Virus record (IMG/VR): IMGVR_UViG_3300028596_001141
Span: 1-28,612 of that record
DNA length: 28,612 bases
Source of the DNA: a virus
Reading direction: 5' to 3' (one strand)
Of this stretch, positions 3,834-22,428 are shown in pieces. Each line of letters begins with the position of its first letter. Within the stretch, counting starts at the first letter, position 1. The translations under genes were made by a program, and so were the position numbers. The notes under the pieces are model-generated. The model was given only the letters and a program-made list of their open reading frames with translations. It was not told where the DNA came from and did not search any database.

Positions 3834-4160
3834 TCACCACTGGCCGTCGTCGAGGAAGCGGGGACCGCTCTCGGTGAGCTGGATCCCGCCGCCCGGACCT
3901 TCCAGCGGACAGGTGGTGTCTTCGCGCATCGGGTCGTTCTCGTCGCCGTTGCACTTGGCCTTGTCGCGGTGCTCCATCAGGAGAACCAGCGACCGGTAGC
4001 CGCGCGCGTTGACGCTGACGCCGTGGCGGTCGACGGCGCGGATCCAGTCGGGTCCGGTCTCCTCGATCCGTACACAGTCGTAGTGGTCGCGGCCGAACAC
4101 GCCACACGAGAAGTTGTGCAGCACATCGCCGACCGCGAGGGGCCGGTGCTCCTGCTCCAT
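3834..4160 (-). CDS. hypothetical protein
   Basis: 108-residue acidic protein. The N-terminal half (PLAVGDVLHNFSCGVFG) looks like a small beta domain and the rest includes RAVDRHGVSVNARGYRS and a CNGDENDPM loop. No family recognised. The ATG at 4160 overlaps the preceding gene by one base and follows GGAGG. The gene ends a few bases before the strong hairpin at 3804-3830. Confidence 0.65.
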   Translation of the reverse strand: MEQEHRPLAVGDVLHNFSCGVFGRDHYDCVRIEETGPDWIRAVDRHGVSVNARGYRSLVLLMEHRDKAKCNGDENDPMREDTTCPLEGPGGGIQLTESGPRFLDDGQW

Positions 4161-4378
4161 CAGTCCTCCACCAGGTGGTCGTAGTCGCGCCGGATCAGCT
4201 CGGTCCAGATGTCGCTGATGGTGCTTCGCACGATCTGGTCCTCGATCGCGTTGCCGGTCTCGATGCCCAGCGCCAGGTCGCACTCCATCCCCCGGATCGC
4301 ATCGGCGACCGAGTGTGCGGCCCTGGTCTTCAGCTCGGCCAGCCGGGCCGGGTCGACCATCGCCTCGACGTGCCTCAC
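4160..4378 (-). CDS. hypothetical small helical protein
   Basis: 72-residue protein, mostly helical by composition (PARLAELKTRAAHSVADAI), ending in an acidic LVED tail; one cysteine. No domain recognised. The GTG at 4378 overlaps the stop of the 43-residue gene upstream and lies after GGAGGAG; ATG 4360 is a possible alternative. Function unknown. Confidence 0.62.
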   Translation of the reverse strand: MRHVEAMVDPARLAELKTRAAHSVADAIRGMECDLALGIETGNAIEDQIVRSTISDIWTELIRRDYDHLVED

Positions 4379-8801: not shown

Positions 8802-11183
8802 ATGAGTAGAGCGGACAGGGAGGTCGCATCCTCTGTCGCGGAGGCTCTGCGAAGCCAGGCGCAGCAGGCCGGATGGGCACAGGATCCCGTCAAGTGGGCC
8901 AACGATGTTCTCGGCGTACACCTGTGGAGCAAGCAGAAAGAGATCTCCGAGTCGGTCTCCAGCAACAAGCGAACTGTCGTGGCGTCCTGCCACGGCACCG
9001 GCAAGGCGCTCGACGTCGAGACGCCGATCCCCACGCCGGACGGTCCGGTCCGCATGGGCGATCTGGTCGTGGGCTCGAAGGTCTACGGATCCGACGGCTC
9101 CATCGTCAGCGTGGTGGCCACCACGGGCGTCCACCGGTCCGACCGGTACCGGCTGACCCTCATGGCGAACGGCACCGAGACGGAGATCATCGCGTCGGGC
9201 AACCACCTCTGGCCGGTCATGACCGGGCGGGGCCGGGCGCGGGCCGAAGTGCCCACCACCCGGATCAACCTGCCCGGCCCGCACTACGGCGCGTGGCACC
9301 ACCTGGCGTCCAATCTCGACACGCGCACCTTGAACGCGATGATGCACCAGAACCACCGGCTGGTGATCCCCGGCCGCGTGCCGGTCCTGCGGCCCGATGC
9401 CGTGCCGTGGCAGGTGGAGAACTGGATCACCGACATCCTCCGCAAGCGAGGTGTGTGCGACGAGGGCGGAAGGCCCGCGATCCGCTGGGTGACGCACGGA
9501 TCGAATCCCCCGGGCGAACTGGTGAAGGTCCGCCAGAGTCTGCGCGAGGCGCACATCCCGACCCTGCTGCACCGGCGCAGGCACAACGCCTCGGTGACGT
9601 GGACCCTGGCGCTGTGCTCGATGGACGCGATCGAGTTCCTGCCGGACCAGAACGAGCGGGCCCTGGCACTGAACGCCGCCATCGACCGGCAGTGGGCCAG
9701 CTACGACCCGGGCCCCGAAGGCTGGGAGATCACTTCGATCACCCGCATGGGAGACGGCGACGTCCAGTGCATCCAGGTCGACTCGCCGGACCATCTGTAC
9801 CTGTGCACCGAAGAGGGGATCCCGACCCACAACTCGATGATCGCCTCGGTGCTGGCTTGCTGGTGGGTCAACACCCGGCCGCCGGGTGATGCCATCGTCG
9901 TGAGCACCGCGCCCACGTACGCCCAGGTCAACAAGATCCTCTGGGAGGAGATCAGGAAGCACCACGCCACGGCGCAGCAGCGGGGCTTCCCCATGATCGG
10001 CCGGGTCACCCAGGGAGACGAGTGGAAGACGGACGCGGGTCAGGTCGTCGCCTTCGGACGCAAGCCCGCCACCGGTGACCGGCACGCCTTCCACGGTATC
10101 CACCGACGGTACGTACTCGTCGTCATCGACGAGGCCTGCGGTGTGCCGGAGGAGATCTGGACGGGCGTCGAGGCGATCACCACCACCGAGGGCTGCCGCA
10201 TCCTCGCCATCGGGAACCCGGACGACCGCAACACCGAGTTCGGCAAGGTCTACCTGAAGCCCGAGATGGCGCACATGTGGCACCGGATCTCGGTTCCCGC
10301 CCACTCCACTCCGAACTTCACGGGCGAGCCGGTGCCCGATCTTCTGAAGGACGTTCTCGTCTCGAAGAAGTGGTGCGAGGAGCGGCTTCAGGCCTGGGGC
10401 AACAAGGACCCCCGGTATATCGCCAAGGTTATGGCCGAGTTTCCCGACGTATCGAAGTCCTCGCTCTTCGCGCCGTCGCTGGTTTCCCAGGCTTTCGAGG
10501 ACGTTACTCCGCAGATGCGCGGTGGGGTGCTCCGGCTCGGTGTTGACGTCGCCCGATTCGGTTCGGACTCCAACGTGGTCGTGTCGTACGCCGGACGGAC
10601 CGCGAAGGTGGAGTCCACGTGGTCCGGCACGGACACCACGTCCTCGGCACATCAGGTGCTGCATCTGGCCGAGGAGATCAAGGACCGGACGAAGTCCTCG
10701 TGGGTCGAGATCCGGGTCGACGCCGTCGGTCTGGGCGCCGGTGTCGTCGACACGCTCAACGCCCGCCTGGCGCTCCTTCCGGAGCCCTGGTACTCGGTGT
10801 ACGAGATGCACGGTTCCGCAGCCGCACCGACCGACCTGGGCGGTTCTGTGCACGGCTACGGCAACGCGCGTGCGTACTGGTTCGACCAGCTCCGCCAGAT
10901 GATGCGCAACGGCTCGGTGAAGGTGGAGGACCACGAGGCCCTGAAGGACGACCTGGCGATCATCTTCTACTCGATCCGGAACGGGAAGCTGTACATCGCG
11001 CCGAAGGAGGAGATGCGCCAGAAGCACGGACGCTCCCCCGACTTCGCCGATGCCCTGGCCTACGCGACAGCCCCTGTGGCCTCGGGCCCGAGGATCGGCG
11101 ACACCTACTCGGAGACGGCGGAGGACTTCGCCCGGGACCTCGACGACTACGTGGACGACGACCTGAGCATCGCCCCGTTCTAG
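8802..11183 (+). CDS. terminase large subunit, interrupted by an intein
   Basis: 793-residue precursor; removal of residues 69-344 leaves a 517-residue terminase. The ATPase Walker A is split: CHGTGK (63-68) before the intein and S345 after it. Walker B is VLVVIDE (438-444), and AIGNP (469-473) is the coupling motif. The C-terminal RNase H-like nuclease has D582 (RLGVDVAR), D640 (RVDAVG) and D747/D750 (SPDFADAL). It drives DNA into the prohead through the portal and cuts the concatemer. No small terminase gene is recognisable next to it. Because the ATP-binding loop is broken, the precursor should be inactive until splicing. Confidence 0.93.
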   Translation: MSRADREVASSVAEALRSQAQQAGWAQDPVKWANDVLGVHLWSKQKEISESVSSNKRTVVASCHGTGKALDVETPIPTPDGPVRMGDLVVGSKVYGSDGSIVSVVATTGVHRSDRYRLTLMANGTETEIIASGNHLWPVMTGRGRARAEVPTTRINLPGPHYGAWHHLASNLDTRTLNAMMHQNHRLVIPGRVPVLRPDAVPWQVENWITDILRKRGVCDEGGRPAIRWVTHGSNPPGELVKVRQSLREAHIPTLLHRRRHNASVTWTLALCSMDAIEFLPDQNERALALNAAIDRQWASYDPGPEGWEITSITRMGDGDVQCIQVDSPDHLYLCTEEGIPTHNSMIASVLACWWVNTRPPGDAIVVSTAPTYAQVNKILWEEIRKHHATAQQRGFPMIGRVTQGDEWKTDAGQVVAFGRKPATGDRHAFHGIHRRYVLVVIDEACGVPEEIWTGVEAITTTEGCRILAIGNPDDRNTEFGKVYLKPEMAHMWHRISVPAHSTPNFTGEPVPDLLKDVLVSKKWCEERLQAWGNKDPRYIAKVMAEFPDVSKSSLFAPSLVSQAFEDVTPQMRGGVLRLGVDVARFGSDSNVVVSYAGRTAKVESTWSGTDTTSSAHQVLHLAEEIKDRTKSSWVEIRVDAVGLGAGVVDTLNARLALLPEPWYSVYEMHGSAAAPTDLGGSVHGYGNARAYWFDQLRQMMRNGSVKVEDHEALKDDLAIIFYSIRNGKLYIAPKEEMRQKHGRSPDFADALAYATAPVASGPRIGDTYSETAEDFARDLDDYVDDDLSIAPF
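9006..9833 (+). mobile_element. intein inside terminase Walker A, class 3 type
   Basis: 276-residue in-frame insertion with splicing-domain motifs. It begins at A69 (ALDVETPIPTPDG), so the usual Ser/Cys at position 1 is missing. Block B has SGNHLW (H135, W137). Block F has DVQCIQVDSPDHLYL with C323. Block G ends PTHN (T342, H343, N344) before S345. W137, C323 and T342 fit the W-C-T triplet of class 3 inteins, in which the block F cysteine starts splicing. The middle (about 215-295, with SLREAHIPTLL and WTLALCSMDAIEFL) resembles the end of a LAGLIDADG endonuclease, but no LAGLIDADG helix is visible, so homing is probably lost. Confidence 0.88.
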
Positions 11184-16677: not shown

Positions 16678-16830
16678 AACGGAAGCTCGGACTTCTCCGG
16701 ACTTCGACGTGGACGTGTACAGCGTATCTCACCGTCACCCCGGGTAGCCGCCACCGTGCGCGTGTCCGACTTGGCCTGATCTTGTGTGCATCGCGCGGAT
16801 ACCATGGCTGAAGGATGACGGGAGATGCCC

Positions 16831-19200
16831 ATGGTTCTGCCCACAACCCGGACTGTCACCGGGAAGTACGTCAACCCGGTGACCGGGAAGGCCCAGACGG
16901 GCAAGGTCGTCTTCACGCCCGTTCCCAGCCGGTGGACCGACAGCGCGGGAAACCAGATTCTCACCGGAGGCGGCTCCCGGCTCCTCGCGGCCGGTGAGTT
17001 CTCACTCGACCTGGTCACCACGGACGCTCCCGACGTGGCCCCGTCCGGACGCTCCTGGCAGCTTCAGGAATTCCTCAACGGCGTGTGGACCACCTGGATC
17101 TTCTCCCTGCCCGCTGGAGACGGTCCGGTCGACATCACGGACCTCCTGACCAACCCGGTCTCCCCGATCCCCGGGCAGCCCTCCCAGGGGCCGCCTGGGC
17201 CCCCTGGACCGCAGGGCCCCGCCGGACCTCAGGGAGAAGACGGGGACCCGGGACCTGCTGGCGCGACCGGACCAGAAGGTCCGCCTGGACCGGCCGGTGA
17301 GAGCAGCGGCATCTCGGGCCTGAACACAGGCATCACCGGCGGCGGCGACATCACCGTCAACGTCTCGAATCCCCTGGCCGTGGACATCTCGCCGCTGCGA
17401 GGGTTCATCGTCGACTACCTCACCGATCCGATGAACCCCGTCATCTCCACGGTGGAGACGGACTCGGTGATCACGGTCGAGCTGACCGCCGAGTCGCAGG
17501 CCAGGACCATCACCTGGTGGCTGATGGACGCGGACATGAACGTCATCCAGCAGCCGCTGCGGCCCACGGGATCCGACCGCCGGACGTACCTCGTTCTCGG
17601 TGTCACCGCACAGGCCTTCGGCAGCCTCATCGTCGACCAGTCGATCCCCGTGATCGTCCAGCAGCCGGTGAACCAGCTCTACGACCTGATGGACGCCATC
17701 GGAGCCTTCAGCATCTCCGGTAACCAGGTCAGCCCGAACGGCGCGAACCTGTCGCTCGACCTCGCCCCGGGCAAGGTGTTCTCGCGGTGCTGGAACCACT
17801 ACGTGGGACCCACCCCGACGAACGATCCGCACGTGGTGTCCACGGTGGGCGGATCCCCCGGCATCTGGATCCGTGTGCTGCGGGCCACCGACCTTCTCGG
17901 TTCTCCCCCGAGCGCGTTCCTGGACCCGGAGAACTACGACAACAACGGCACCCTCTCGCCGGTCGACGGCGCCTCGGAGCGCTCCACGGTCCAGCGGCTG
18001 TGGGTGTTCCCGAACAACGACGGCGTCTCGGACATCTACGTCGCCCAGTACGGCCAGGCCGTGTACGACACGCTGTCCGAGGCGGTCGCGGCGGCCGGTG
18101 ACCCGAACTTCGTCACCAACCAGGCACTGCCCGGACAGGGTGTCCTGGTGGGCTACCTCGCGGTCCGCTACACGGCCACCGACCTTTCGGACCCGACCCA
18201 GGCGCGCATCATCCCGGCGGCCAAGTTCGGCATCGGCCCGGCCATCGTCGATGCGTTCCCGGCGGAGGACGGCGCCAGCCTCGAAGCGCGCATGACGGCC
18301 GCCGAGAACTCGCTGCTCACCAAGGCGAGCAGGACCGCCAACCTGTCCGACCTGACGGACGCTGCGGTCGCACGCAGCAACCTGGGGCTCGGGAACTCCG
18401 CGACGCGCGACGTGGGAACGGCCGCCAGCACCGTTGCCGCCGGTGACGACACCCGGATCAACGGAGCGGCCCAGAAGGCGTCCAACCTCTCCGACCTGGG
18501 CAGCGCCTCCAGCGCCCGCACGAACCTGGGCCTCACCTCTGTGGCCACCGCGTCCTTCGGCACCACGGCCGGTACGGTCGCGGCCGGAGACGATGCCCGG
18601 ATCACCGGCGCCTTCCCGGCGACGGGCGGCACGGTCAGCGGCAACCTGTCGGTCACCGGATACTCCCTGGGGCAGGACACCCCGGCCGCTCACGGAATCT
18701 CCGCGTGGTGCTACGACCCGGCGCTGGCGGTGAACTCCACGCAGGTCAACGGAGGGGTGGCGTATCTGACCCGGGTCAATATCGCCGCCGCCGTCAACGC
18801 GACCAAGATCTACTGGTGGATCGCGAACGTCGGCGCGGGACCGGTGGCCACCCAGAACCAGGTGGCGCTGTACGACTCGACCGGAACGCGGCTGGCCGTC
18901 ACCAACGTGGACGCGGTCATCAGCTCGGCCGGACTGAAGTCCACCACCATCGCCTCGACGGCGCTGACGGCCGGTTCCTTCTACTGGGTCGCGCTGCTCT
19001 TCAACGCCTCCGCTACCCCGACGCTGACTCGCGCTTCGGGCTGGACCGGTGTGGACGCGGCAGCGAACATCGGCTACACGGCGGCAACATTCCGGTTCGC
19101 CACGAACGGATCTTCGCTGACCACGCTTCCCGCCACGATCACTCCGGCGTCCAATGTGGGAACCGACTTCGCCGGACCCTGGGCGGCCGTGGGTCCCTGA
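16831..19200 (+). CDS. collagen-like tail fibre / minor tail protein
   Basis: 789 residues from ATG 16831; ATG 16825, two codons upstream, is possible, but GGGAG touches it, while it is 6 bases from 16831. Numbering from 16825: residues 1-110 are a beta-rich N-terminal domain, 122-160 are 13 Gly-X-Y triplets, 180-490 a beta-rich shaft/receptor region, and 506-600 two tandem 48-residue repeats. The last 170 residues form a Trp/Tyr-containing beta domain (TKIYWWIANVG, SFYWVALLF) that may bind host surface sugar. Fibres of this form trimerise through the collagen segment. It sits between capsid and connector genes rather than after the tape measure. Confidence 0.85.
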   Translation: MVLPTTRTVTGKYVNPVTGKAQTGKVVFTPVPSRWTDSAGNQILTGGGSRLLAAGEFSLDLVTTDAPDVAPSGRSWQLQEFLNGVWTTWIFSLPAGDGPVDITDLLTNPVSPIPGQPSQGPPGPPGPQGPAGPQGEDGDPGPAGATGPEGPPGPAGESSGISGLNTGITGGGDITVNVSNPLAVDISPLRGFIVDYLTDPMNPVISTVETDSVITVELTAESQARTITWWLMDADMNVIQQPLRPTGSDRRTYLVLGVTAQAFGSLIVDQSIPVIVQQPVNQLYDLMDAIGAFSISGNQVSPNGANLSLDLAPGKVFSRCWNHYVGPTPTNDPHVVSTVGGSPGIWIRVLRATDLLGSPPSAFLDPENYDNNGTLSPVDGASERSTVQRLWVFPNNDGVSDIYVAQYGQAVYDTLSEAVAAAGDPNFVTNQALPGQGVLVGYLAVRYTATDLSDPTQARIIPAAKFGIGPAIVDAFPAEDGASLEARMTAAENSLLTKASRTANLSDLTDAAVARSNLGLGNSATRDVGTAASTVAAGDDTRINGAAQKASNLSDLGSASSARTNLGLTSVATASFGTTAGTVAAGDDARITGAFPATGGTVSGNLSVTGYSLGQDTPAAHGISAWCYDPALAVNSTQVNGGVAYLTRVNIAAAVNATKIYWWIANVGAGPVATQNQVALYDSTGTRLAVTNVDAVISSAGLKSTTIASTALTAGSFYWVALLFNASATPTLTRASGWTGVDAAANIGYTAATFRFATNGSSLTTLPATITPASNVGTDFAGPWAAVGP
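17188..17304 (+). repeat. collagen-like Gly-X-Y repeat coding region
   Basis: Thirteen uninterrupted G-X-Y triplets, proline-rich (GPPGPPGPQGPAGPQ at the start, GPPGPAGES at the end). Such runs form triple helices in phage fibres and are known hot spots for length change. Confidence 0.9.
18340..18627 (+). repeat. two tandem 144-base fibre repeats
   Basis: Copy 1 spans 18340-18483 and copy 2 starts at 18484. Both encode a 48-residue unit with NLSDL, then AR-NLGL, then TVAAGDD-RI-GA. This unit is common in tail fibre shafts, and duplication by recombination is likely. Confidence 0.8.
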
Positions 19201-19215
19201 TCCGGGACAGAAAGA

Positions 19216-19246
19216 AGCCCGGCCGCCAGATGGACGCGGCCGGGCT
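19216..19246. terminator. bidirectional terminator between fibre and DUF397 genes
   Basis: Perfect 11-bp inverted repeat, 19216-19226 with 19236-19246, 9-base loop. It lies between two convergent genes and can serve both directions; on the minus strand it is followed by CTTTCT. Confidence 0.78.
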
Positions 19247-19268
19247 CTCCTCACCGTGAGCGTGCAGC

Positions 19269-19463
19269 CTATCGCACGGACTTCACGAACTTCACCCAGG
19301 CATCCGGGTGGAACCCGAGAACGGCGCCGACGCCGTCGTTCTTGGTGTCGCGGACCACCGCATGTGCTCCGTCCACGGAAACGCCCTGCTCGATGCAGGC
19401 ACCGCCGGTGGAGTCGCTGTAGCTGGACTTGTGCCAGCCGGTGGCACCCTGGTCGTTGGTCAT
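19269..19463 (-). CDS. DUF397 protein
   Basis: 64-residue protein with the full DUF397 pattern: WHKSSYS near the N-terminus, a GGACIEQG segment, VVRDTKND, and a C-terminal FHPDAWVKFVKSV. DUF397 proteins are abundant in Streptomyces chromosomes, normally next to an XRE/DUF5753 regulator with which they are thought to act; some pairs are described as toxin-antitoxin-like. Its ATG overlaps the regulator's stop (ATGA), so the two are co-translated. Presence inside phage structural genes is unusual. The molecular role is unsettled even in hosts. Confidence 0.9.
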   Translation of the reverse strand: MTNDQGATGWHKSSYSDSTGGACIEQGVSVDGAHAVVRDTKNDGVGAVLGFHPDAWVKFVKSVR

Positions 19464-20338
19464 GCGATGTTCTCCTTCTGCGCTGCACGGAGGTTCGCCA
19501 GGAGCTTTTCCAGGCGATGTCTGGTGTCGATCCGGGACAGGGCGTGGGACTGCACCTCGGAAAACCGGGACAGCTCCAGCTTCACCTGGTCCGGGTGATC
19601 ACTGAAAGACCGGTACGTGTGTACCACAGAACCGTCCGGCGTGCCGTCGAAGCCCATCACGCTGAGGAACCCCGCGATGAGCATGTTTCCGGGACTGCCG
19701 ATCGGCAGGAGCTGGATGGTGACGTTGGGGCGCTCGCCGAGGTTCAGCAGGTGCTCGATCTGGCCGATCATGACGGACGGGTCCTCGAATTCGAGGGAGA
19801 GCACCGGCTCGGCGACGATGGCCCAGACCTTCGGCGGGTCGTCGCGGTCCAGGATGGAACGCCGCTCGCGCCGCAGGGAGAGCACGTCCTCGGGGTTGAG
19901 CTTCTCCTGCGCCAGCAGCCCCCGGGAGTTGACCAGCGACGCCTGCGCGAACTCCTCGGTCTCCAGCAGGGCGTGGAAGCTGTTCAGGTTGACTGTGCGC
20001 AGCTCGGTCGACAGGTCTTCGATGTCGGCCAGGTCGACGTGCTCGTCACTGGCGGTTTCGCCGTAGGCGAACCACCACCCGCGTACCCGGCAGGCGCGGG
20101 CCAGCGCGATGATCCGCTCACGGACCACAGGGTCCTCGATGCCGTAGATGTCGAGGTAGGTCTTGGCGTCCGCGATGGAGGTGGCGGTGTGCCCCGTCTC
20201 CTGGCGGTACACCACGCTCTTGCCCACTCCGAGGTGCTGCGCGGCAACGTCGATGCTCATGCCGTGGTCCTCGCGGAGTCGGCGGAGCTTCGAGCCGATG
20301 AGGCGCTTCCTCATGGTGGCGATTCCCCTGTAAGCCAT
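19460..20338 (-). CDS. XRE-family regulator with DUF5753 (WhiJ/Scr1-like)
   Basis: 292-residue regulator. Residues about 13-70 are an XRE helix-turn-helix (SKLRRLREDHGMSIDVAAQ, then HLGVGKSVVYRQETGH). Residues about 105-285 form a DUF5753 domain, with ETEEFAQASL, LRRERRSILDRDDPPKVWAIV, and VTIQLLPIGSPGN followed by FSV/VMGFDG-like strands. The ATG at 20338 has AGGAG 5 bases upstream; the longer frame to 20479 is not used. Homologues such as WhiJ repress or modulate development genes in Streptomyces together with a DUF397 protein and an RsbW-like ATPase, both present here. It probably binds its own divergent promoter region. Confidence 0.9.
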   Translation of the reverse strand: MAYRGIATMRKRLIGSKLRRLREDHGMSIDVAAQHLGVGKSVVYRQETGHTATSIADAKTYLDIYGIEDPVVRERIIALARACRVRGWWFAYGETASDEHVDLADIEDLSTELRTVNLNSFHALLETEEFAQASLVNSRGLLAQEKLNPEDVLSLRRERRSILDRDDPPKVWAIVAEPVLSLEFEDPSVMIGQIEHLLNLGERPNVTIQLLPIGSPGNMLIAGFLSVMGFDGTPDGSVVHTYRSFSDHPDQVKLELSRFSEVQSHALSRIDTRHRLEKLLANLRAAQKENIA

Positions 20339-20629
20339 GTCGTCTCCTGTGCCCTCTGTGACTGACGTCTTCTCCTTTGGCGAGCCCGCGCCGCCCGAAG
20401 GTGGAACGCTTGTTCGCGATAGCGAGATTATGTCACAGAGAGACTTGTCATTACCGCATCTGCGCGAGAGTCTGTTCATTACGTCAGTGTCCGGGCGAGT
20501 TTGTGGTGATCATGCCGATCCGGTGGAACACTTCGCGACACCTTGGCACAACGGGGAAAGTTCAGTCATACCAACCCAGGCGGCGCACTGGTGCCGCACA
20601 CCCTCGAACGCGAGCGACGGAGCCGCGCG
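20339..20629. promoter_or_regulatory. divergent intergenic region of the regulator cassette
   Basis: 291 bases between the divergent regulator and ATPase genes, visibly richer in A and T (20401-20520) than its surroundings. TCATTAC occurs at 20448-20454 and 20476-20482, 28 bases apart, and could mark operator half-sites. On the minus strand a CATAAT hexamer (complement of 20427-20432) is a candidate -10 for the regulator. No gene is visible. A ribosome site (GGAG) lies 7 bases before ATG 20630. Confidence 0.5.
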
Positions 20630-21031
20630 ATGACGATGACAGCAGCATGCGTAGGGCCGCAGCAGTACGAGAAGACCTACCCTTCCGACCGGACCTCGGT
20701 GAAAGAGATCCGGCACGACATGACCCTGGCTCTCCGGACCTGGGGGCTCGATGATCTGATCGACGACATCACGATGGTGGTGTCCGAGCTGATGACCAAC
20801 GCGATCCTCCACACCGAGACCCCGAAGATCGGCGCAACCATTACCAGGGTCGGGGACCAGACGGTCCGGCTTGAAGTGCGGGACCGCTCGCCGAAGGAGC
20901 CCCACGCGCCGCGCACAGGGAATACCGACGAATCGGGGCGTGGCATCGCCCTGGTCGACGCCCTGGCGAGCGCGTGGGGGTGGGAGCGTGTCTTCGGTGG
21001 CAAGAAGGTCTGGGCGGAAGTGAGCGCCTAG
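20630..21031 (+). CDS. RsbW-like ATP-binding (HATPase_c) protein
   Basis: 133-residue single-domain GHKL ATPase of the anti-sigma/RsbW type. The N-box is SELMTNAILHT (E, N and H as in the family), the G1-type segment reads EVRDRSPKEP, and the G2-type loop is DESGRGIALVDALA followed by WGWE. Proteins of this type bind partner sigma factors or anti-anti-sigma factors, or act as protein kinases; in whiJ/abaA-type loci their target is unknown. GGAG lies 7 bases upstream of ATG 20630; a start at 20543 lacks a site. Its stop shares CTAG with the stop of the convergent 62-residue gene. Confidence 0.88.
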   Translation: MTMTAACVGPQQYEKTYPSDRTSVKEIRHDMTLALRTWGLDDLIDDITMVVSELMTNAILHTETPKIGATITRVGDQTVRLEVRDRSPKEPHAPRTGNTDESGRGIALVDALASAWGWERVFGGKKVWAEVSA

Positions 21032-21216
21032 GAGCCAGGTTCCTCTCGCATTTCGGCGAGGAGGTCGAACATGTCGTGCACACGGTTGTCACGGTCCCCG
21101 ATGACGCGGGCCCTCCACTCCCTGTACACGGCAATGGCCTCCTCGCCGCTCATGTTCTCCGCCGGTGCGGTCGCCTCCCGCTGTCGAGGGACGCCCGTGG
21201 TGCATGGTGCAGGCAT
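21028..21216 (-). CDS. 62-residue hypothetical protein
   Basis: Small acidic, helical protein (SGEEAIAVYREWRARVIGD, then MFDLLAEMREE). The ATG at 21216 has a very strong ribosome site (AAGGAGG, 8 bases upstream); a longer frame to 21264 does not. Its stop and that of the ATPase gene overlap in a palindromic CTAG (21028-21031), so the genes are convergent and touch. No family recognised; from size and position it may belong to the regulatory cassette, but this is inference. Confidence 0.62.
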   Translation of the reverse strand: MPAPCTTGVPRQREATAPAENMSGEEAIAVYREWRARVIGDRDNRVHDMFDLLAEMREEPGS

Positions 21217-21516
21217 GTGGTGCGCCTCCTTCTGTCTCCGCGCGAAGGCTAAATCATTGGCCATGCCTTAGGCCAGGGTACGTTGCGTGGTGATGGACAC
21301 ACCATAGGTAGCCACACGGAAAACCCGGGGGATACCCAGGGGTTTTCTGGGGCTTTCGGCGCCCGAAAGGTAGGATGGGAAACAGAAAACCCGGCCCATG
21401 ATGACCGCTGAGTCAGGCCGGGTTCCCCGCAGAATCGCTATCAGCCAGCGATGCCGCCATCGTATCCCACAGGGTGTTGCGCGGCCAGCATCGCAGGTCA
21501 GAGGACAGGAGACCTG
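21217..21516. other. non-coding hairpin-rich region
   Basis: 300 bases without a convincing gene. It contains three stem-loops: GAAAACCC (21319-21326) with GGGTTTTC (21340-21347); CTTTCGG (21353-21359) with CCGAAAG (21363-21369); and AACCCGGCC (21388-21396) with GGCCGGGTT (21416-21424). The promoter of the minus-strand 62-residue gene should lie in 21217-21300. The hairpins may terminate readthrough from the left or form a structured leader for the gene at 21517. Confidence 0.6.
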
Positions 21517-22428
21517 GTGGCCCGCACTCGCCACGGACGGCAGCGCAGCTTTGCCTCCATCCCCAATGCCACTATCGACGATGCGCAGCATCTCGACTTC
21601 ATGGCGCTCGCTCTCCTCACGGTGCTTTTGCGCCAGAAGGATGGCTGGGACATGACGCTGGAACGCGTCGGTAAGAAGTACGGATACGGCCGGGAGGCTC
21701 TGGCAAATGCCATGGGCCTGCTCCAGGTGGCACGGTATGTCGTGAAGGTCCGTGTGCAGATCGGCGGCGGAGGCCACTGGTTCACCGAGATCATCACCTA
21801 CGACACACCCGCTTCCGACGAGGAGGTGTCGGAGCTTCTGCTGCGAATCGCCTCCGAGCCGCTCGTCATGGATGTGCGCTTCATCGAACCCACACAGACC
21901 GCCCGCAACCGTTCGAAGGCGCGGGCGACGAAGCTGGCGAAGACCAAGCCGGACCCCGAGAAGGTCGTGGTGGACCTCGGTGCCCGGACCAGCGAATGCT
22001 CGGATGAGCCGAGTGCCGGAAAACCCGCACTCGGTGACGACCCAGACGCCCCAAGGGTCGAGGAGGAGAAACCGCAGGTCAGCACCGAGTGCCGGGATAC
22101 CCGACAGTCGGCTGAGGCCGCACTCTCTAAGAAGACTGTCCCTCTCGAAGACATCTCTCTCTCATCCTGTGAGCCCTCGGGCGGAGCCTCGGGCGAGGAC
22201 GAAGAGATTTCACTGCTCGACGACCTGGGCTTCGCCAGTGAGACGCCCGAGAACCAGGCTGAGTGCCCGCCTGCGCGCCTCACAGTGGTTCCGGCACCCC
22301 AGGAGTCGGACGGGACGGAGAACGGCCCTGAGAGGCCCTCTCAGTACCCGGCGGTGTGCCGGTCGTGCTGGCAGCCGTTCGCCCGGACCCAGGGCGCCCT
22401 GGTGCGACTGTGCGAGAAGTGCCGCTGA
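21517..22428 (+). CDS. winged-helix DNA-binding protein with C-terminal zinc ribbon
   Basis: 303-residue protein. Residues about 20-95 look like a winged helix (FMALALLTVLLRQKDGWDMT, then GKKYGYGREALANAMGLL and a VKVRVQIGGGGHWF wing). A long acidic, Ser/Pro-rich linker (about 140-270) leads to CRSCWQPF ... LCEKC, a four-cysteine zinc ribbon at the extreme C-terminus. This layout resembles helix-turn-helix proteins found widely in Streptomyces genomes. The GTG at 21517 follows AGGAG at 5 bases; the frame upstream to 21451 lacks a site. It is probably transcriptional regulation, but the target is unknown. Confidence 0.72.
   Translation: MARTRHGRQRSFASIPNATIDDAQHLDFMALALLTVLLRQKDGWDMTLERVGKKYGYGREALANAMGLLQVARYVVKVRVQIGGGGHWFTEIITYDTPASDEEVSELLLRIASEPLVMDVRFIEPTQTARNRSKARATKLAKTKPDPEKVVVDLGARTSECSDEPSAGKPALGDDPDAPRVEEEKPQVSTECRDTRQSAEAALSKKTVPLEDISLSSCEPSGGASGEDEEISLLDDLGFASETPENQAECPPARLTVVPAPQESDGTENGPERPSQYPAVCRSCWQPFARTQGALVRLCEKCR

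Follow-up and report, generated by a model that had tools for sequence, protein, structure and literature searches.

A divergent three-gene regulatory cassette lies among the structural genes of the window, the 28,612-nucleotide stretch of viral DNA analysed here, which is a 28.6-kb fragment from an IMG/VR virus record. On the minus strand, a gene for an XRE regulator with a DUF5753 domain is followed by one for a small DUF397 protein, and both point away from a plus-strand gene for a GHKL-type ATPase. The cassette and its surroundings comprise the following features:

16825-19200, left of the trio: tail fibre gene (PHROG E 1e-74)
19215-19250 (~19217-19246): hairpin in the convergent gap between the fibre and DUF397 genes (fold about -31 to -34 kcal/mol)
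19269-19463, minus strand: DUF397 (BldB-paralogue-like) protein, 64 aa (Pfam E 5.6e-15, 55.7 bits, cut-off 24)
19460-20338, minus strand: XRE HTH and DUF5753 (WhiJ-like) regulator, 292 aa (Pfam HTH_31 and DUF5753, alignment, tree)
20424-20473: candidate regulator operator GAGATTATGTCACAGAGAGACTTGTCATTACCGCATCTGCGCGAGAGTCT, near-invariant in four phage lineages
20630-21031, plus strand: GHKL/HATPase_c_2 (AbaA/RsbW/SpoIIAB-like) protein, 133 aa (Pfam E 1.6e-12, 48 bits, cut-off 27.4)
21028-21264, minus strand: conserved 78-aa ORF of no known family (61-70% aa identity in relatives)
21451-22428, plus strand: HTH-like DNA-binding protein (PHROG_1456 E 1e-8; the true start may lie further in)

The family memberships that an initial annotation had read from motifs held in profile searches, all three lying above the Pfam cut-offs; the DUF5753 domain of the regulator matched with E 5e-31 (108 bits, cut-off 23.4). 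The DUF397 protein carries the motifs KSSYS, CIE and RDT, in agreement with the expected KSSYS, CxE and RDS-type motifs. As first annotated, the end of the regulator gene overlaps the start of the DUF397 gene by ATGA at 19460-19463, an overlap that persists in the nearest relative and is replaced by a short gap in the other lineages, and the ATPase gene diverges from the regulator gene across an intergenic region of 290 bp. Start codons were refined to an ATG at 20338 for the regulator and an ATG at 20630 for the ATPase, both conserved in all relatives, and the longer, mechanically listed ORF starts at 20479 and 20543 were not supported. In the ATPase, residues E53, N57, D85 and G103-R104-G105 are invariant in the alignment with relatives. 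Its nearest solved relatives include SpoIIAB (PDB profile match, E about 1e-5), it scores below the NCBIfam cut-off for SpoIIAB, and Pfam recognised no sigma or anti-anti-sigma partner gene next to it. No sigma-70 promoters were found around the cassette, and AlphaFold modelled the regulator poorly (mean pLDDT 59.5 from four sequences).

The gap between the fibre and DUF397 genes had been described as holding a bidirectional terminator. The hairpin is present and folds on either strand (z about -1.9 on each), and a role as bidirectional terminator is plausible since contigs L010, L012 and L013 have a G+C hairpin, with altered bases, in the corresponding position. On the other side of the trio, the 78-aa ORF is convergent with the ATPase gene, their stops overlapping by 4 nt, and its C-terminal part finds a match at Satis gp48 (53% over 37 aa). 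The HTH-like gene beyond it occurs in all four lineages (52-80% aa identity), has no match in Satis, and is followed by neck and tail genes (PHROGs).

PHROGs also recognise the terminase, portal, protease, capsid, fibre, major tail protein and tail-assembly chaperone in the window, and the reported position of the trio between the fibre and head-tail connector genes was confirmed. The window is kin to the cluster-BM Streptomyces phages, with ~77-79% DNA identity to Satis, Kradal, Frankenweenie, Kela and JustBecause over parts of the terminase-capsid and connector regions. Nucleotide and gene similarity to Satis and JustBecause is present and the structural proteins are related; membership here means similarity to these ~186-kb phages and not a formal cluster threshold. 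In a 166.8-kb relative of the window, the terminase ORF (L015, 336-3752; 1138 aa) apparently has two intein-type insertions, after GTGK and VVLDEAC, and the window terminase (8802-11183, 793 aa) may bear the first of these, after GTGK. We also found that a minus-strand frame of the window at 3834-4283, within 3834-4378, corresponds in position to Satis gp44 (45% over 94 aa), a gene located in the Satis slot that in the window houses the trio; the block of small minus-strand genes seems to be displaced to the left of the terminase in the window.

Neither the 166.8-kb relative nor Satis yielded a tyrosine integrase or large serine recombinase in profile searches, the serine recombinase search recovering the Picard enzyme as a working positive control, and no match to ParA-type AAA_31 was found in either genome. 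A prophage switch is disfavoured on these grounds, and action in lysogeny, which the initial annotation had entertained, is weakened. Because no integrase was found, the trio-bearing BM-like phage is probably virulent, as judged from a window that is certainly a fragment and a 166.8-kb relative that is perhaps incomplete. Frankenweenie, a member of cluster BM, is reported to lack an integrase and a repressor and to be an unlikely temperate phage (PMC10652959).

A search of viral contigs with the regulator returned five IMG/VR contigs, including two mutually close pairs, the window being the sixth record. The block and its slot are common to L010/L011, L012/L015 and L013/L014, and in all contigs the gene order is fibre, DUF397, XRE, ATPase and 78-aa ORF, with the HTH gene next wherever the contig extends. 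Chance is excluded by the conservation of this block in five other contigs. Compared with the other lineages, the window is 67-75% identical in the XRE regulator, 58-70% in the DUF397 protein and 63-87% in the ATPase. The frames of all three genes are unbroken across the lineages, with Nei-Gojobori dN/dS values of 0.24-0.37 (XRE), 0.32-0.56 (DUF397) and 0.12-0.41 (ATPase). The 166.8-kb relative contains a single DUF397 match. In isolated BM phages, the corresponding slot is a long block of small minus-strand genes, and tblastn detected none of the trio genes there; the trio therefore belongs to a sub-lineage so far seen only in metagenomes. From these comparisons, the trio is an old, lineage-conserved module under purifying selection. 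It is indeed a complete host-type trio, as had been proposed, but a reading as cargo freshly acquired from a host was rejected in view of the fixed slot, deep divergence and purifying selection.

The intergenic region between the regulator and ATPase genes is poorly conserved save for a few blocks, the largest of which (~20424-20473) forms the candidate operator. Its layout is TGTCACnGAGnnACTTGTCA, 8 bp, and then TCTGYGCGAGAnTCT, and its core TGTCACAGAGAGACTTGTCA (20431-20450) contains two TGTCA repeats 15 bp apart. No second copy of the core was found in the window or the 166.8-kb contig with up to three mismatches allowed, and regulation therefore looks local. The operator lies 93 bp from the start codon of the regulator in the window, in L010 and in two Streptomyces genomes, G150 and G306; in L012 and L013 the spacing is 82-85 bp. 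A 43-bp consensus derived from phages only has 9 mismatches to the intergenic sequence at the G150 sister locus, whereas none of 1000 dinucleotide shuffles of this sequence came below 16 and none of 38 other host loci (~3.7 kb) below 18. Across 393 Streptomyces genomes, the merged 20-bp pattern TGTCACnGAGnnACTTGTCA has a single occurrence, at the G150 sister XRE/DUF397 locus; the G150 site helped to define this pattern, and the independent evidence is only its absence elsewhere. Taken as sequence comparisons, the data are strong evidence that the conserved element is a site used by this regulator clade, and both the anatomy of the trio and a selected operator are well supported; the regulator presumably binds it. 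We found no enrichment of the WhiJ9 consensus CGNNCTCAAC in the window, and the intergenic region contains no match to it within one mismatch; a WhiJ9-type operator was therefore rejected, and the sites of WhiJ9 and the phage regulator differ.

Host relatives were obtained by whole-genome searches of the same 393 Streptomyces genomes. The nearest regulators have 43% identity (two genomes), followed by others at 30-37%; plasmids hold only regulators of ~30% identity, and a scan of genome contigs with the window regulator gave no relative, nor did a wide alignment give a usable stretch. In a maximum-likelihood tree, the BM-like regulators form a clade (100/100) that is sister to those of two Streptomyces genomes (100/100), on a long branch that calls for caution. 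This clade is separate from the Picard and Samy clades, which argues for independent acquisitions by phages. The nearest ATPases, found in about a dozen genomes at 43-50% identity, mostly have no DUF397 or DUF5753 neighbour and, where looked at, stand beside a different regulator. Separate host loci may thus have supplied the phage regulator and the phage ATPase, or the direct donor may be unsampled. At the Streptomyces loci L086, L088 and L090, the most phage-like ATPases (45-50%) have the same MTM N-terminus and adjoin a different XRE-type regulator, possibly representing a second type of abaA-like locus. Among the best 40 related Streptomyces loci (~1.5 kb flank each), a DUF397 gene lies near the regulator in 38 and an ATPase gene in 26. 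These counts bear out the whiJ/abaA-type layout originally suggested and agree with the published clustering of whiJ, bldB and abaA paralogues (PMC10294661).

The closest system that has been studied is that of S. venezuelae, where the direct repeats bound by WhiJ9 lie between whiJ9 and the divergent iosA; WhiJ9 is required for iosA activation and has its site downstream of its own promoter, with data that fit autorepression (PMC10294661). BldB hetero-oligomerises with its paralogues, its loss strongly raises all five abaA paralogues, and overexpression of abaA6 or iosA blocks sporulation (PMC10294661). We hold with moderate confidence that the phage trio is a WhiJ-BldB-AbaA-type switch, resident in probably virulent Streptomyces phages, whose anti-sigma-like ATPase would act on host transcription or development. 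Going beyond the genes, layout, slot and purifying selection visible in the sequences, we infer DNA binding and a host effect: the XRE/DUF5753 regulator would bind the 43-50 bp element, repress its own gene and the co-transcribed DUF397 gene, and control the divergent ATPase gene. Modulation of WhiJ proteins by the BldB family has been proposed, and the DUF397 protein may act on the phage regulator in this way, besides possibly pairing with BldB paralogues of the host. As the output of the switch, the ATPase, like AbaA, RsbW or SpoIIAB, might sequester or phosphorylate a host sigma-factor or anti-sigma partner, so that infected mycelium would stay vegetative and phage-productive while the phage replicates.

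This proposal is supported by the domains, the fixed slot, the dN/dS values of 0.12-0.56, the near-invariant single-copy operator and its recurrence at the G150 sister locus with identical 93-bp spacing, the recruitment of the whole trio by phages on at least two occasions, and parts and geometry resembling the WhiJ9-iosA system (PMC10294661); its anti-sigma component draws on the retained GHKL residues and the similarity to SpoIIAB. We count against it the missing WhiJ9 consensus and the sister host locus, which has no ATPase on the other side, so that the operator may mainly serve autoregulation. In addition, abaA6 was the only one of five abaA paralogues to give an obvious developmental phenotype on overexpression (PMC10294661). 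The steering of host differentiation or sigma factors, as first suggested, can reasonably be inferred. In a bolder form, which we offer tentatively, large, virulent, prolate-headed Streptomyces phages would use a domesticated BldB/WhiJ/AbaA copy to block aerial growth and sporulation in colonies that they infect, with the DUF397 protein tapping host BldB oligomers; if true, this would be a developmental hijack by a lytic phage.

It is also conceivable, although we doubt it, that the switch is directed at the phage's own gene expression instead of host development, with the ATPase as a phage anti-sigma factor or the regulator timing the structural genes. Redirection of host RNA polymerase is common among large phages, and the trio stands in the structural region beside the HTH gene and the connector and tail genes. 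However, an operator present once in the window and in the 166.8-kb relative leaves no obvious second phage target, and isolated BM phages manage without the trio. A superinfection-exclusion, defence or toxin-antitoxin-like unit, in which DUF397 would be the toxin and XRE the antitoxin, is improbable. XRE-DUF397 pairs have been predicted to be type II toxin-antitoxin systems (PMC2701414) and DUF397 genes have been linked to some conflict systems (PMC7159879), but 14 such pairs in S. coelicolor did not behave as type II toxin-antitoxin (PMC10364602) and PADLOC gave no match except a weak generic HTH; the toxin-antitoxin suggestion of the initial annotation, like a known defence system, is accordingly disfavoured. 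Slightly less probable still is a selfish or neutral passenger of no benefit to the phage: the family is mobile and multicopy in actinobacteria (PMC2701414, PMC10294661), but slot and order are fixed in three diverged lineages, purifying selection is evident, and the operator was kept while most intergenic sequence changed.

In Streptomyces, the BldB, WhiJ and AbaA paralogues rank among the most numerous regulators and among the least understood. The phage version is compact, has a single DNA site and shares its genome with no paralogues, which makes it a simple system for testing how the three proteins cooperate, and the operator is a directly testable DNA target common to phage and bacterial locus. 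Judging from the tree and layouts, phages appear to have recruited the whole trio at least twice, the second time in Picard-type phages; this repeated recruitment, probably by lytic phages among others, suggests that phages gain from changing the development or sigma-factor use of the host. Streptomyces uses this kind of switch to control sporulation and antibiotic production, and related viruses have kept their copy intact together with its own DNA control site, so the trio is a good candidate for a viral means of interfering with host development.

The presence of the trio in phages is already visible in public annotations. We found no paper on it in the literature searched, which left most subscription journals outside; as far as this shows, neither the fixed slot of the trio in a lineage of large, probably virulent phages nor the operator conserved between phage and host has been described before. 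The phage cassette resembles whiJ/bldB/abaA loci such as iosA-whiJ9-bldB9 (PMC10294661) in having an XRE/DUF5753 regulator, an adjacent DUF397 gene, a divergent effector and a candidate binding site between regulator and effector, and differs in being phage-borne and in an operator sequence unlike the WhiJ9 repeats. Its ATPase shares the GHKL fold family and nucleotide-binding residues of the SpoIIAB/RsbW anti-sigma kinases, although it is distant from SpoIIAB. Searching for the trio in other phages, we also found it in the temperate Streptomyces phages Picard and Darolandstone and their relatives, annotated gene by gene between endolysin and integrase, and the three genes recur together in this layout in 11 of 11 Picard-type viral contigs. 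These have the same three families and the same divergent arrangement, but they bear an integrase, their regulator is 27-28% identical and in a different tree clade, and the operator core is absent. The Streptomyces prophage Samy and Saccharomonospora phage PIS 136 likewise have a tandem regulator and DUF397 gene, but no ATPase partner is annotated and they occupy separate tree branches. Phage Raleigh (L008, 3358-4710) has a regulator-type gene of 450 aa beside an ATPase, with no DUF397 gene annotated; this gene shows no match to the regulator of the window and could be a fusion or a regulator of another type. Although the divergent gene at the XRE/DUF397 locus of G150 and G306 is a short unrelated ORF and not an ATPase, this bacterial locus is sister to the phage regulator (100/100) at 42% identity and has the same operator at the same distance.
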